DNA of 64,000 nt from Nitrospirota bacterium. Its GTDB lineage: Bacteria; Nitrospirota; Nitrospiria; Nitrospirales; Nitrospiraceae. This document shows positions 6,354 to 58,373 of the stretch, piece after piece. How positions within the stretch are numbered: position 1 is the stretch's first letter; each line of letters starts with the position of its first letter. The notes under the pieces were generated by a model. It had not been told where the DNA came from. It saw only the letters and a program-made list of their open reading frames with translations, and searched no databases. The DNA lies in NCBI GenBank assembly GCA_016200355.1, contig JACQEY010000111.1:1-64000 (forward strand). The letters are read 5' to 3'. The position numbers were made by a program, and so were the translations under genes.

Positions 6354-7235
6354 ATGGCACCTCGCGCGATCATCACCGGGGCGGCGGGCTTAATCGGACA
6401 GTACCTTGTGAAGACCGCCCCGCGATGGGCTCCCGGTTGGGATGTAACGGGACTATCCCGTGCGGAGCTTGAACTGACCGAATCGTTGAAGGTGGAAGCG
6501 CGGATTCATGCGTTGAAGCCAGACCTCCTCATCCATTGTGCCGCTCTCAGCCGAACCAAGGCCTGCGAGCAAGATCCTGATCAAGCCCACTGCATCAATG
6601 TGGAGGCCACTGCGCATCTCGCGCAGTTGTCCCAGGACATTCCCTTCATCTTCCTGTCCAGCGGGGAAGTCTTCGACGGGAAGACCGGCTGGTATGTCGA
6701 GACGGATGAACCGAACCCGATCAACGTATATGGCCAGACGAAGCTGGAAGCCGAACAGGCCGTTTTGAAGAATCCCACACATACAGTCATTCGGATTGTC
6801 CTGACTGCCGGAACTTCGGAGGCCAGCGACAAGAGTTTTGTCGAAGATATGTGTCGGACCGCGAAGGCCGGCAAGGATGTGACGCTCTATGCCGACGAGT
6901 TCCGCTGCCCCCTTCCTGCTGGTGTGATTGCACGAACCATCTGGGAACTCGTCGATCGCAAGCAGCCGGGTCTCTATCACCTGGGCGGAAGTGAACGGCT
7001 CTCGCGCTGGGAAATTGGTGAGTCTTTGCTGCCTTGGTATCCGGAGTTACAAGGCCACCTGATAAAAGGCTCCTCACGGAATCACGTTGGGAGCCTCCGG
7101 CCCGCCGATCTTTCGCTCCGTTGCGACAAGATCCAGCGCCTCCTGTCGTTTCGCATCACGGGATTTCGTGAATGGCTCGCTGGGCGTTCACGTCTAGGTG
7201 CGGACTTGTGGGATTACCTCGACGGAAGTCCGTGA
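6354..7235 (+). CDS. SDR / RmlD-like sugar nucleotide reductase family protein
   Basis: GAAGLIGQYL nucleotide motif, YGQTKLEAE active site motif. Confidence 0.85.
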   Translation: MAPRAIITGAAGLIGQYLVKTAPRWAPGWDVTGLSRAELELTESLKVEARIHALKPDLLIHCAALSRTKACEQDPDQAHCINVEATAHLAQLSQDIPFIFLSSGEVFDGKTGWYVETDEPNPINVYGQTKLEAEQAVLKNPTHTVIRIVLTAGTSEASDKSFVEDMCRTAKAGKDVTLYADEFRCPLPAGVIARTIWELVDRKQPGLYHLGGSERLSRWEIGESLLPWYPELQGHLIKGSSRNHVGSLRPADLSLRCDKIQRLLSFRITGFREWLAGRSRLGADLWDYLDGSP

Positions 7236-7272
7236 GGCGTGAAGCGCAGGAACCGGGACATCGGAGGACGCG

Positions 7273-8070
7273 ATGATGGGATCGGATACTCTGTCCATCG
7301 TCCTCACTGCGTATCTGGCCATGGCTGTTGTCATGGCGGGGCTCTGGGTCCTCCAACTTCGAGTGCGCAATGCCTCGATCGCGGACGTCGGCTGGTGCGC
7401 GGGTCTCATCGCGGTCGTGCTGTGGTACGCCACACAGGCCACCGGCGAAACAGAGCGAAAAATGCTGGTGACTGCCTTGGCCTTGCTCTATGCAGGGAGG
7501 CTGGGATTCTACATCCTCCTCAATCGGGTGATCGGTAAGACGGAGGATGCTCGCTATCAGCGACTGCGCGAGCAATGGGGCGCATCCGAACGGCTCAAGA
7601 TGTTCGGATACTTTCAACTGCAAGCGCTGGCTGTGGCGGCCTTCTCCCTCCCGTTTCTGGTTCTGGTCCACAATCCACGATCCCCCTTCGCGCTGATCGA
7701 GCTCGTGGGGTTGCTGATCTGGATCATCGCGGTTTCCGGGGAAGCTCTGGCGGACTGGCAGCTCGCGCAATTCCGATCCAAGTCGTGGAATCGCGGCAGG
7801 GTCTGTTGCGCCGGACTCTGGCGCTATTCACGCCATCCGAATTATTTCTTTGAATGGTTGCACTGGTGGGCCTACGTTATCATGGGAGTGAGCACGCCTG
7901 GATGGATCTTGACCTGGATTGGCCCGATCGGCATGGGGTGGGCACTACTGAAAGTCACGGGTATTCCTTGGACGGAGCAACAGGCCCTCGCGAGACGGGG
8001 AGAGGACTATCGAGCCTATCAACGGAGGACGAACGCATTCTTCCCATGGTTTCCTCGTGGCTCGCAGTGA
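7273..8070 (+). CDS. DUF1295 / steroid 5-alpha-reductase-like membrane protein
   Basis: GLWRYSRHPNYFFEW motif, multiple TM helices. Confidence 0.9.
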   Translation: MMGSDTLSIVLTAYLAMAVVMAGLWVLQLRVRNASIADVGWCAGLIAVVLWYATQATGETERKMLVTALALLYAGRLGFYILLNRVIGKTEDARYQRLREQWGASERLKMFGYFQLQALAVAAFSLPFLVLVHNPRSPFALIELVGLLIWIIAVSGEALADWQLAQFRSKSWNRGRVCCAGLWRYSRHPNYFFEWLHWWAYVIMGVSTPGWILTWIGPIGMGWALLKVTGIPWTEQQALARRGEDYRAYQRRTNAFFPWFPRGSQ

Positions 8071-51472: not shown

Positions 51473-52503
51473 TTACTCGTCGTCGTGGCTCACGCCGCCT
51501 AACCCGATCACAGACGATCCGTGCTTGGCAATCAGCGCGTCCATCGTCTCGATGGCTTTTGTCCGCCGTTGGTTGAACAGCCCCGGAGGCGCAGGCGTCA
51601 AGGAGGAGAGCGCGAGCCCTGCCAGTCGGTACTCGGTGCCGGGGCGAAGAAGTTCCTGTAGCGCCTGTTGGACGGTCGGCCACATGTCGGGATCGTAGTT
51701 CAGCTGGTGCGGAAAGCGATGTTGCTTAGTCGTGATGGCGAAACGGGAGTTCTTCAGCTTCACCGTGCAGGATCCTGCGGCCAATCCTTCTTGTCGGAGA
51801 TCTCGCGCGAGGTCACGGAGAAATCCACGCAGGGTTCGCTCAAGAAAAGGACGATCGCGTGTGTCGCGTTCGAAGGTAGTCTCGTGGCTGAGGCTTTTGG
51901 ATTCTCGGTCGGCCACCACCGGTTCGTGGTCGATCCCTCGCGCCAACTCGCGAACCCAGTGGAGTCGCGTGCCGAAGATATGCCGCAAGGGTTGTTCCCA
52001 GCGTTGGTCCAACAGCTCGCCGATAGTCTTGAGCCCAAGCGGTTCCAGGCGCGCGGCGGTTTTGGGACCGATTCCCGGCAATGCACGCAGAGGCCTCGGG
52101 GCTAAGAATGCTTCTTCCGTACCGGGCGGGACTACCACCAATCCATCAGGCTTGTGACTGTCCGCGGCGATTTTGGCGACGGTCTTGCCGGTTGCGACGG
52201 CGATGGTGCAGCGCAATCCCGTGGCGTCGTACAGCGCATCCTTCGCGAGTTGTCCGAGTGAGTGAGGGTCAGGATGGCGGGTCTGGAGCTGTGTCGTGTC
52301 GGCATAGAATTCGTCGATGCTGCTCCATTCGGTGAGTGAGAATAATTGGTCGGTCACTAACTCGCTGCTGCGATAATTCCTCGCGGGGAGGAGCCACCGA
52401 CGGCCACCGGTTTGCCTGCAAGGCTTGGGTCAGCCAGGACGGCCGCTGAGGCGAACATCGCATCGACATCGCCGAACAGGATCTGGCGAGACCAGCGCAT
52501 CAT
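51473..52503 (-). pseudogene. dinB: DNA polymerase IV-like (DinB) gene with internal deletion and frame change
   Basis: N fragment 52503-52357 MMRWSRQILFGDVDAMFASAAVLADPSLAGKPVAVGGSSPRGIIAAAS*; then in another frame VTDQLFSLTEWSSIDEFYADTTQ...CTIAVATGKTVAKIAADSHKPDG...LPGIGPKTAARL. Confidence 0.85.
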
Positions 52504-53256: not shown

Positions 53257-54183
53257 TCACCCCAATTCTTCGTGCACAGCCGCTGCTAACAACGGCACCA
53301 TGATTTCGTGGTGGCCGATCAGGGAGTAGCCTTTTCCGCCCTTCTGGGTCGGCCGACGTACCACGTTAGTGAGCGGGCGGTAGTGAGCCAGGAAGTCCAT
53401 GTCCACGGTCGTAATGTTGGTCAGATCATGACCAAGGTTGCGCCCCAGCGACACAGTTTTGAGGAAGACTTCCGGCAAAATGACGGCAGAGCCGAGATTG
53501 AGGTACACGCCTCCCTCCATCCCTGATACAACAGCCGCAAGCCGTCGAAAGTCCAGCAGCGAGGTTGCGCCAATGGCAGAGCCGTCCGCGGCAGGATGCA
53601 TATGGATAATGTCGGTACCGATCGCGACGTGCACGGTCACTGGAATGCCGAGTTTCGCGCCGGTCGCCAGGATGCTCGTCTCACGATGGGGGAATTGTCC
53701 CTGGCGCCGGTTGATGTAGTGGCCGACGGATTCGCCGAGCCCCTCGCGATCGTGAGCCCCTCGGACAATCGCCTCGTTCAGCATGCGACCAGTTTCTTCC
53801 GCCATCCCGAAGCGTCCCTCGTCAATCTCCGCATCGACTTCCTCCGATGTATGCCCCATGAGCGCCAATTCAAAATCGTGGATGATCCCAGCTCCGTTCA
53901 TGGCCACTGCCGAGACAATCCCTTGCTGCATAAGGTCCGTGAGAATCGGACTTAATCCGACCTTGATGACGTGGGCACCGAGTCCCACGATGACGGGCCG
54001 GCCTTTGCGATGAGCCTTCACGATGGCTTTGGCGACGGCTCGCAAGGTTTTCACGCCAAGGATATCAGGCAGCGAGCGATAGAATTGGCTGAAGCTGCCC
54101 CCCCGGCGCCAGGGGCCTGCAAAATCGGAAACACGGACCTTGCTGTGCCGTTTCTTGAGCGGATAGGTTGTGAGATCCGTCAC
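53257..54183 (-). CDS. Deoxyhypusine synthase-family protein
   Basis: FAGPWRRGGSFSQFYRSLPDILGVKTLRAVAKAI; VIVGLGAHVIKVGLSPIL; MNGAGIIHDFELALMG. Start uncertain (GTG proposed). Confidence 0.8.
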   Translation of the reverse strand: MTDLTTYPLKKRHSKVRVSDFAGPWRRGGSFSQFYRSLPDILGVKTLRAVAKAIVKAHRKGRPVIVGLGAHVIKVGLSPILTDLMQQGIVSAVAMNGAGIIHDFELALMGHTSEEVDAEIDEGRFGMAEETGRMLNEAIVRGAHDREGLGESVGHYINRRQGQFPHRETSILATGAKLGIPVTVHVAIGTDIIHMHPAADGSAIGATSLLDFRRLAAVVSGMEGGVYLNLGSAVILPEVFLKTVSLGRNLGHDLTNITTVDMDFLAHYRPLTNVVRRPTQKGGKGYSLIGHHEIMVPLLAAAVHEELG

Positions 54184-54232
54184 ATTGATCGGCGGGATCA
54201 GGCTCGGAGTTGTGACGGGAGGCCGCTGCCGG

Positions 54233-54811
54233 TCAGGAGGCTTTGCCAAGGAGCTGTTCCTCGATGAGTTCACACAGGATGTGGCCGAGCGTGATGTGAC
54301 TTTCTTGAATGCGAGCCGTGACCGTCGAGGGCACGACGAACGGATATTCCACAAGACCAGCCAGTTTCCCGCCGGTCCCTCCGGTCCAGCCAATGGTGGT
54401 GAGTCCACAGATCCGCGCAGCCGCCACACCTTTCAACACGTTGGGTGAATTGCCGCTGGTGCTGATAGCGATGGCGACATCGCCCTTCTGGCCATGGGCG
54501 CGGATCTGGCGGGCAAAGAGTTCTTCGAAACCGTAGTCGTTAGCGATGCAGGTAATGGCGGCGATGTCGGTGGCGAGGGCGATGGCTGGGAGCGGGTCCC
54601 GCTCCCGTTTATAGCGGCCGACAAACTCGGCGGCGATATGGGCCGCATCAGTGGCGCTTCCACCGTTGCCGAAGAGTAACACTTTTCGGCCTTCGCGAAA
54701 GGCCGTGGCCATCAGCTTTACGATCTGTACGATGCGATCGGCGTGCTCGCGCGCAAACTGTTGCTTGACGGTTGCGCTGTCGGCAAACGCACTGAGTACA
54801 CGCTCTTTCAT
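54233..54811 (-). CDS. gmhA: Phosphoheptose isomerase (SIS domain)
   Basis: LLFGNGGSATDAAHIAAEFVGRYKRERDPLPAIAL, ISTSGNSPNVL. Confidence 0.93.
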   Translation of the reverse strand: MKERVLSAFADSATVKQQFAREHADRIVQIVKLMATAFREGRKVLLFGNGGSATDAAHIAAEFVGRYKRERDPLPAIALATDIAAITCIANDYGFEELFARQIRAHGQKGDVAIAISTSGNSPNVLKGVAAARICGLTTIGWTGGTGGKLAGLVEYPFVVPSTVTARIQESHITLGHILCELIEEQLLGKAS

Positions 54812-54866
54812 GGGAAGCGATTTTAGGCAACCTGCTGTCACCTGTCAAACGTTACTCGCCGGCTGG

Positions 54867-56286: not shown

Positions 56287-56433
56287 GGGACCTCTTCTAC
56301 GGTTCGAAAGGTCTGCAAGGAGCGGGAGATCGTCATGAAAGTCTAAGCGCGTTTCCGTAGACCGTCAAGCAGAAGGCGCATTACCCGGCCATGAATTGAT
56401 CGCTCAGTGCGGTGATGACTCATAGGGCGGGGG

Positions 56434-56564: not shown

Positions 56565-57821
56565 ATGGCGCACGACCAACCAGTCAAAGCCTTAGTGCTC
56601 GCGCTCACCGACCATGCGGCGGCGGCAGTCTATTCGATCAATCGTCTGCAGCCGGATTCGCTCTGCTTCGTGTTGCCTGAAGGGGCGAAGTCGCTCGTAG
56701 AATCCGAGGTCCAGCCGAAGATCGAGCACATGCCTAGACGGTGGGATTGGGTGATCCTCGCAGAGACCGGCGAATTTGTCAGCTGTTATCAGACGCTCGC
56801 ACGGACACTTCCGGAGATGTTGCGTACATGGGAGGTGCAGCCAGGCGAACTCGTCGTCGATGTGACCGGGGCCACTCCGGCCATAGCTGGCGCACTGACG
56901 CTGGCTACCTTGTCTCTCAGTTCGCGGATCGTGTCGCTCGTGCCGGCACGAGAGGGACAGGAGGGGGATAGAATTGATATTGCCGGACAGCCGTTCGTAT
57001 GGACGCAGGGAAATCCCTGGGATGAGGCGGCTTCCGTTTCACGCCGCGAGGGCTGTGAGCTGTTCAATCGGAGATTGTTTGCCGCATCGGCGAAGCTCTT
57101 CCGCGAGGTCGAAGCGCGGGTGAGCGGCGGGCAGAAACCGCTCTATCGGGCCTTTGCAGACCTGGCTGACGGCTACGACCTGTGGGAGCGATTTCACTAT
57201 CGTCAAGCCTGGGAGAAACTCAGGGCTGCTATAAAGGCTTTCGAAATGGCGTCTCTGTGGGGCGGACCACCAGGACTCACGTCGCTGTTACCGGCCATCA
57301 AAGCGAACGCGGGATTCTTGGAAAAGCTCGTCCTGGACCCTGCTCCCGTGAAAGACCTGCAGGCCCACGACCTGCTGGCCCATGCAGGCCGACGACTGCA
57401 TGGTCTGCACGACTCGGAAGCCGCGATGGTCTCGCTCGTGCGTGCGCTCGAAGCCTTCGCTCAACGACAACTGTTCAAACAATACCAGATCAAAACCTGG
57501 GACGTGCAGCCGGAGCAATTGCCGCAGGCGCTGCGAGAAACCTGTCGATCGTGTTGGCTGGAAGATCTCGATGGCAAGTACAAGCTGCCCTTGCAGGCAC
57601 AGTTTCGAGCGCTGGCCGGATTGGGTGACCAGATAGGTCAAGCCTTTTTGCGCGAGTGGCCGACGATGAAACCCCTGCTCGATGCCGCCAATCATGCTGT
57701 ACTCGGCCACGGCTTCGAGCCAGTCAAAGCCGAGCGGGTGCAACAGCTGTACGACGTGGTCGTCAAGCTATCAGGCGTCAGTGAAGCGTCGCTGCCGAAG
57801 TTTCCGATGCTGAGCCTCTAG
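56565..57821 (+). CDS. CARF-domain Cas02710/TIGR02710-like protein, stand-alone
   Basis: Rossmann/CARF-like LALTDHAAAAVYSINRLQPDSLCFVLPE...LVVDVTGATPAIAGALTLATL; C-terminal DLLAHAGRRLHGLHDSEAAMVSLVRALEAFAQRQLFKQYQIKTWDV resembles the Cas02710 helical region. Start placed after the repeat. Confidence 0.75.
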   Translation: MAHDQPVKALVLALTDHAAAAVYSINRLQPDSLCFVLPEGAKSLVESEVQPKIEHMPRRWDWVILAETGEFVSCYQTLARTLPEMLRTWEVQPGELVVDVTGATPAIAGALTLATLSLSSRIVSLVPAREGQEGDRIDIAGQPFVWTQGNPWDEAASVSRREGCELFNRRLFAASAKLFREVEARVSGGQKPLYRAFADLADGYDLWERFHYRQAWEKLRAAIKAFEMASLWGGPPGLTSLLPAIKANAGFLEKLVLDPAPVKDLQAHDLLAHAGRRLHGLHDSEAAMVSLVRALEAFAQRQLFKQYQIKTWDVQPEQLPQALRETCRSCWLEDLDGKYKLPLQAQFRALAGLGDQIGQAFLREWPTMKPLLDAANHAVLGHGFEPVKAERVQQLYDVVVKLSGVSEASLPKFPMLSL

Positions 57822-57826
57822 TGAAG

Positions 57827-57964
57827 CGTCGTTCGTGAAGCGTATCTCGTTTGAAGAAGGATCGACGAAGTGAAATGGACAAGATACGAAACTTTCGCGA
57901 TCTCGAGGTGTGGAAACTAGGGAAGGGAATAACGGCTCTGACGAGATACGCTTCACGAACGACG
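57827..57964. repeat. Inverted-repeat element with perfect 24-bp arms
   Basis: CGTCGTTCGTGAAGCGTATCTCGT (57827-57850) and its exact reverse complement ACGAGATACGCTTCACGAACGACG (57941-57964). Confidence 0.92.
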
Positions 57965-57982
57965 AGATACGATGGAAGTTAG
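57875..57982 (+). pseudogene. N-terminal remnant of a four-helix-bundle (S23/IVP-like) protein gene
   Basis: MDKIRNFRDLEVWKLGKGI... matches the characteristic N-terminus (FRDLEVW) of that family; the remainder is lost. Confidence 0.65.
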
Positions 57983-58373
57983 GATCTACTACGAAGATAC
58001 CGACTGCGGCGGGATGGTGTACTATGGGAACTATCTCAAGTATTTCGAGCGGGCGCGGACGCAGTATCTCGAAGAGCGAGGGTTGTCGGTGGCCGGGCTC
58101 ATGAAGGAAGGCACGGTGTTTGTCGTGGTCCATGCAGAAGTAGATTACCGATCTCCAGCCCGCTATGGCGACAGGCTGATCGTCGAGACGGTTGTCTCTG
58201 ATATGACGGCAGCGTCCTTCACGTTTTCGCACGTGATCCGAGAGCGGGAGAGCCGGCGTGTGGTCGTTGAAGGATTGGCCAGGTTGGCGGCAACGGATGG
58301 AAATGGAAAAGTGAAGCGCCTCGACAAGGCGATGGTCGCCGTATTACAATCGGGGCCTGCAAGGAGTCACTAA
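57972..58373 (+). CDS. ybgC: YbgC/4-hydroxybenzoyl-CoA-type acyl-CoA thioesterase
   Basis: RIYYEDTDCGGMVYYGNYLKYFERARTQYL. Confidence 0.93.
   Translation: MEVRIYYEDTDCGGMVYYGNYLKYFERARTQYLEERGLSVAGLMKEGTVFVVVHAEVDYRSPARYGDRLIVETVVSDMTAASFTFSHVIRERESRRVVVEGLARLAATDGNGKVKRLDKAMVAVLQSGPARSH

Follow-up and report, generated by a model that had tools for sequence, protein, structure and literature searches.

The window analysed here, a 64,000-nucleotide stretch of a Nitrospirota genome, carries a gene for a 418-aa protein of the Csm6/TIGR02710 (CARF-6H-HEPN) family in which the CARF and the HEPN signature motifs are both degenerate. Comparison with its relatives leads us to favor, with a probability of roughly 0.7, the explanation that an immune effector lost both signature sites and was then kept for another purpose, so that the present protein would be a repurposed, inactive effector. 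Work on CARF-HEPN proteins treats them as immune effectors of type III CRISPR systems. The gene and the sites discussed below are as follows:

56565..57821, + strand: 418-aa protein of CARF-6H-HEPN type, Csm6/TIGR02710 family, degenerate at both signature motifs (sequence, profile and structure matches)
56859..56879, + strand: CARF motif DVTGATP, residues 99-105, with Pro in place of the ligand-binding Lys of DxTGGTK (alignment; the Lys is equivalent to K137 of Thermus thermophilus Csm6, TtCsm6)
57687..57713, + strand: HEPN motif ANHAVLGHG, residues 375-383, which reads RNxSxLAHG in active-type relatives, with the catalytic Arg changed to Ala and the His kept (alignment; the Arg is equivalent to R415 of TtCsm6)
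57393..57410, + strand: RLHGLH, residues 277-282, an earlier RX4H candidate, unconserved (ortholog alignment)

The frame at 56565-57821 (+) is a genuine open reading frame. The open frame extends back as far as a GTG at 56412, but most orthologs start at the residue that corresponds to the ATG at position 56565 (of the 77 aligned, 61 have M there and 12 have V). The protein matched TIGR02710 with 122 bits (cut-off 83.9) and, in Pfam, PF09670 (Csm6 HEPN, 74 bits) and PF22205 (Csm6_6H, 42 bits), both above cut-off. PADLOC model PDLC01812 (CARF1--CARF_HEPN) matched over the full length (E 1.5e-237); because the Nitrospira defluvii protein scored higher than the window protein on this model and remoter members lower, PDLC01812 is in effect a model of the Nitrospirales CARF-HEPN family. 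The AlphaFold model (pLDDT 91.3, pTM 0.83) contains both the CARF and the HEPN modules in a CARF-6H-HEPN arrangement, and the top PDB folds retrieved for it by Foldseek were Csm6 structures, with that of Thermus in first place. A search of the PDB with the family profile likewise led to TtCsm6; a PDB search with the single sequence gave no meaningful match, and a viral structure library searched with the model gave nothing significant. The identification of a CARF/Cas02710-like protein in a first-pass annotation, made from the DNA letters alone, was borne out by two of the checks it had proposed, the HMM search and the structure model.

Loss of the signature residues extends far beyond this one protein. 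We compared 138 distinct near-full-length sequences, comprising 126 from Nitrospirales and 12 relatives from outside that clade. Not one of the 126 Nitrospirales sequences has Lys at position 105 or Arg at position 375, whereas the CARF Lys and the HEPN Arg are both intact in all 12 outside relatives, a group made up of a chromosomal sister clade and of type III-linked paralogs from these same bacteria. Further positions conserved in the outside relatives and changed in the order include CARF 13, 15, 103 and 124 and HEPN 273 and 290. As judged from these alignments, the CARF and HEPN sites are lost together throughout the order. A profile alignment to TtCsm6 pairs DVTGATP with DLTSGTK and ANHAVLGHG with RNSALLVHG, which puts Pro105 of the window protein in the place of K137 and Ala375 in the place of R415. 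In TtCsm6, the K137A mutant neither binds cA4 nor degrades RNA, and any one of R415A, N416A and H422A abrogates RNase activity (PMC10897365). Because Lys105 and Arg375 are gone from 126 sequences and these mutants are inactive, we infer that the Nitrospirales proteins have lost both cA4 binding and RNase activity.

These results bear unequally on what had first been read from the motifs. The sequence DVTGATPAIAGAL was found where the first-pass annotation had placed it (residues 99-111), and its suggestion that the change from GGTK to GATP may alter ligand binding holds: the altered motif is real and should affect binding, given that the equivalent K137 is needed for cA4 in TtCsm6. Its choice of RLHGLH as an RX4H HEPN-type motif was mistaken. 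The His of RLHGLH is present in 49 of 77 orthologs and the inner columns vary freely, a level of conservation too poor for a HEPN motif; the true motif lies ~100 residues further on, at residues 375-382, and has no arginine. The window protein thus has neither the DxTGGTK Lys nor the RX4-6H motif of cyclic oligoadenylate-activated Csm6, with His382 present, and the alignments and the AlphaFold model together indicate a HEPN fold devoid of the catalytic arginine.

The CARF-HEPN gene is a near-universal, mostly single-copy chromosomal core gene of the order, and it is neither rare nor mobile; this core status and the joint loss of the two sites were absent from the first-pass annotation. The protein query matched 140 of 148 genomes of the family (108 of the 110 good ones) and all 22 genera, and the ortholog itself is counted in 139 of the 148, one genome (G139) matching through a paralog only; many of the sampled genomes are incomplete, and a few of the genes behind the count of 139-140 are fragments, cut short by a contig end or interrupted by a stop codon. 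Within the phylum sample, orthologs were found in 26 of 28 genomes of the sister family f2, in one of three of f3 and in none of three of f4. A relative at 37-39% identity is present in family f21, which lies outside the class, and the rest of the sample has distant relatives only. Nearly all of the named records retrieved belong to Nitrospira or Nitrospirota, N. defluvii and N. moscoviensis among them, the closest being that of Nitrospira sp. CG24C (94%). At least one small genome (G066, ~1.7 Mb) can do without the gene, a natural deletion (locus L193, ~7190-7400) having removed it together with residues 1-108 of a neighboring thioesterase; the scar consists of the last 25 thioesterase residues, adjoining a SIS-domain gene. 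In another genome (G137, locus L104), the intact gene is followed ~1.2 kb downstream by a further, incomplete CARF-HEPN match with 59% identity and two TGA stops, probably a tandem duplicate that has decayed.

In the phylogenetic tree, the order forms a clade with support of 100/100 on a stem of 0.86 changes per column, the f21 sequences branch just outside it, and the type III paralogs make up a separate clade. Family f2 forms one clade and splits f1, where some forks are weakly supported; L065, an f1 sequence, clusters with the one from f3. This topology fits a single loss of both sites before the order diversified, which would have been followed mainly by vertical descent. A defense gene moving horizontally is disfavored by the kept chromosomal position and by the tree, where f1 stays close to the taxonomy and the f2 sequences hold together as a single clade. 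The core gene is under purifying selection, with a median dN/dS of 0.087 over 66 pairs within the genus (CARF 0.116, 6H 0.064, HEPN 0.063). Sequencing error or a dying gene as the source of the degenerate motifs can be dismissed, given 126 concordant sequences and this low dN/dS.

The lower values for 6H and HEPN indicate that the C-terminal half is more constrained, despite the lost catalytic arginine. It could be argued from this constraint, and from the retention of His382 in 67 of 74 order sequences, that the protein has remained an RNase, its active site working without the canonical arginine and a different ligand activating it. We consider this improbable, because the arginine is replaced in 126 of 126 order members, His382 is also missing from several f2 members, and R415A alone suffices to abolish the activity of TtCsm6 (PMC10897365). 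The active RX4H RNase first proposed for this gene fares no better, the wrong motif having been named and the true catalytic Arg being gone.

The original observation that the gene stands alone, with no array or cas gene visible in the window, was confirmed and extends to the genome. A repeat scan found no CRISPR-like repeat in the window, and the genome scan for type III that had been suggested, with profile searches of the window's own genome (92.6% complete) in which Csm1, RAMP and Cas1 models stood in for type III and CRISPR loci, gave no match to any of the three and thus no sign of a type III system with Cas10. RAMP genes occur in 6 of the 148 family genomes (5 of the 110 good ones) and in 4 of 28 f2 genomes, and Csm1 exceeds its cut-off in 3 of the 148. 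Several single-contig genomes with the core gene, including that of N. defluvii (G030), appear in no RAMP match list, so the absence of type III systems is not merely an effect of assembly. Where type III genes are present, a different protein accompanies them: in G054 and G139, a divergent paralog sits by its coordinates between cas1 and RAMP genes, and this paralog, like the other paralogs read, has intact DFTGGTK and ARNxSxLAHG motifs. The core ortholog itself was not found in G139; G054 and G112 carry the core gene and an intact paralog together. Going by their motifs, these paralogs are an internal control, in that the same bacteria keep the motifs intact where the protein serves a type III system.

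Two immune roles can be weighed against these counts. The first-pass annotation had favored an active orphan effector sensing cyclic oligoadenylate from a distant type III locus or from another system, and the overall fold and the family scores agree with such a role. We nevertheless hold it to be very improbable: Csm1 and RAMP genes are lacking in its own genome, which also has no Cas1 match, and in most of its relatives, so that there is hardly a distant locus to serve; both signature residues are lost; and the type III-adjacent paralogs are separate and intact. Little more can be said for a decoy or dominant-negative partner that damps type III signaling, for example by pairing with active paralogs. 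The few genomes with both proteins (G054, G112) would allow it, but most genomes that keep the core gene have no type III genes and, by the counts, its retention is unrelated to their presence, while loss of the TtCsm6-type cA4-binding residue makes a ligand sponge hardly possible; we regard the decoy as extremely doubtful.

Gene order around the CARF-HEPN gene is conserved across the order, with the following neighbors in the window:

57972..58373, + strand: YbgC/FadM-type acyl-CoA thioesterase, the next gene downstream in most of the order (profile matches, locus comparison)
54233..54841, - strand: SIS-domain (GmhA-like) protein, a conserved divergent neighbor (locus comparison)
53257..54429, - strand: protein with weak deoxyhypusine-synthase similarity, a conserved divergent neighbor whose true start is probably inside the frame (locus comparison)

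Of 36 order loci, 33 have a thioesterase of this type as the next gene in the same orientation; of the exceptions, one (L063) ends at the contig edge and two (L071, L082) have no thioesterase. The gap is 6-28 bp, or the frames overlap, in most f2 loci. The SIS-domain and deoxyhypusine-synthase-like genes lie upstream in divergent orientation. In the window, the gap that separates the CARF-HEPN stop codon from the start of the thioesterase holds a perfect 20-nt inverted repeat (57831-57850 and 57941-57960). When 2 mismatches are allowed, its 20-mer recurs at 4 other sites in the genome (reversed control 0), which suggests a small repeat of the dispersed or MITE-like kind. Further upstream, at 51473-52357, a DinB/Y-family-polymerase-like frame encodes 294 aa, as against 471 aa in G066 (L193), and the window copy may be truncated or frameshifted.

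This conserved and often close adjacency raises the possibility that the protein works with the thioesterase, for instance as a controlling sensor or scaffold; a ligand that contains an adenine nucleotide, for example (acyl-)CoA, might sit in the altered CARF pocket. The ortholog and the thioesterase are both missing from several order genomes. This joint absence is weak evidence of linkage, because G066 represents one deletion, G042 and G139 are also missing the deoxyhypusine-synthase-like neighbor, as would be expected of an unassembled block, and G051 and G284 keep the CARF-HEPN gene with the thioesterase neither adjacent nor detectable elsewhere. These last two genomes also weaken the case for an obligate partner. 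Moreover, the thioesterase is found in 250 of 396 phylum genomes and is common there without the CARF protein, and a CoA ligand is speculation. We therefore judge such a partnership unlikely, if less so than a persisting RNase.

For the repurposed, inactive effector that we favor, the course of events may be pictured as follows. A Csm6-type (CARF-6H-HEPN) effector that once belonged to type III CRISPR immunity would have become an ordinary chromosomal gene of Nitrospirales. An ancestor of the order would have lost the RNA-cutting HEPN arginine and the CARF residues for holding cyclic oligoadenylate, and the gene would since have been inherited mainly vertically under purifying selection. The protein should still fold, and probably dimerize, like Csm6. 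Its HEPN half might bind RNA and leave it uncleaved, and the altered CARF pocket might control this binding through some ligand that is not cyclic oligoadenylate. Nucleic-acid binding has been proposed for other HEPN domains devoid of catalytic residues (PMC3710099), and by analogy with these we tentatively take non-cutting RNA binding as the likeliest single mode, though at less than even odds, which would make the protein a regulator rather than a nuclease. We put at about even the chance that the whole amounts to a single domestication, in an ancestor of Nitrospirales, that turned a CRISPR alarm effector into a cellular regulator whose ligand is new and whose HEPN domain does not cut, a protein serving housekeeping, not immunity. 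Two observations speak against a repurposed, inactive protein: its dispensability in G066, and the retention of His382 in most members and of Asn376 in many, which could hint at residual function.

A CARF-HEPN gene with both signature sites disabled is thus near-universal in a group of central ecological importance, to which the Nitrospira nitrifiers belong. If confirmed, its repurposing would mean that CRISPR machinery has been recruited for ordinary cell biology, and would raise the question of what the altered CARF pocket senses. There is also a practical consequence, as automatic annotation (TIGR02710 'CRISPR-associated', PADLOC CARF_HEPN) would call a CRISPR effector in most Nitrospira genomes, although the protein is unlikely to work as one there.

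Among known systems, TtCsm6 (PDB 5FSH, 8JBB, 8JBC, 8JH1) is the best PDB match by both structure and family profile and has the same domain order and fold. It differs in having K137 and R415-N416-H422, binding cA4 and cutting RNA, whereas the Nitrospirota protein has Pro105, Ala375 and no type III locus. Since the window protein matches both TIGR02710 and PADLOC PDLC01812, the family is already catalogued, but these labels (CRISPR-associated or candidate defense) are silent on the lost motifs and the core status. CARF homologs outside CRISPR loci are abundant (PMC12669027). A literature search, of which the 2020 CARF classification (gkaa635) was not part, returned no paper on a Nitrospira CARF-HEPN protein; the papers searched do not describe the order-wide core status in combination with the loss of both motifs, although part of this may already stand in that classification. 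The type III-linked CARF-HEPN paralogs of the same order (L089-L094) share the architecture at 26-27% identity but keep the motifs, of which the core gene has neither, and fall in their own clade of the tree. Another parallel is the f21 chromosomal gene (L084-L086), which stands alone like the core gene. In L084 housekeeping genes flank it, with that for NAD kinase on one side and rho, prfA, an EPSP-synthase-family gene, hisG and hisD on the other; none of the f21 loci read has the thioesterase, and RAMP genes are present in 4 of 6 f21 genomes. The f21 gene branches just outside the order clade and, unlike the core gene, retains both motifs intact, as DYTGGTK and SRNxSxLAHG.
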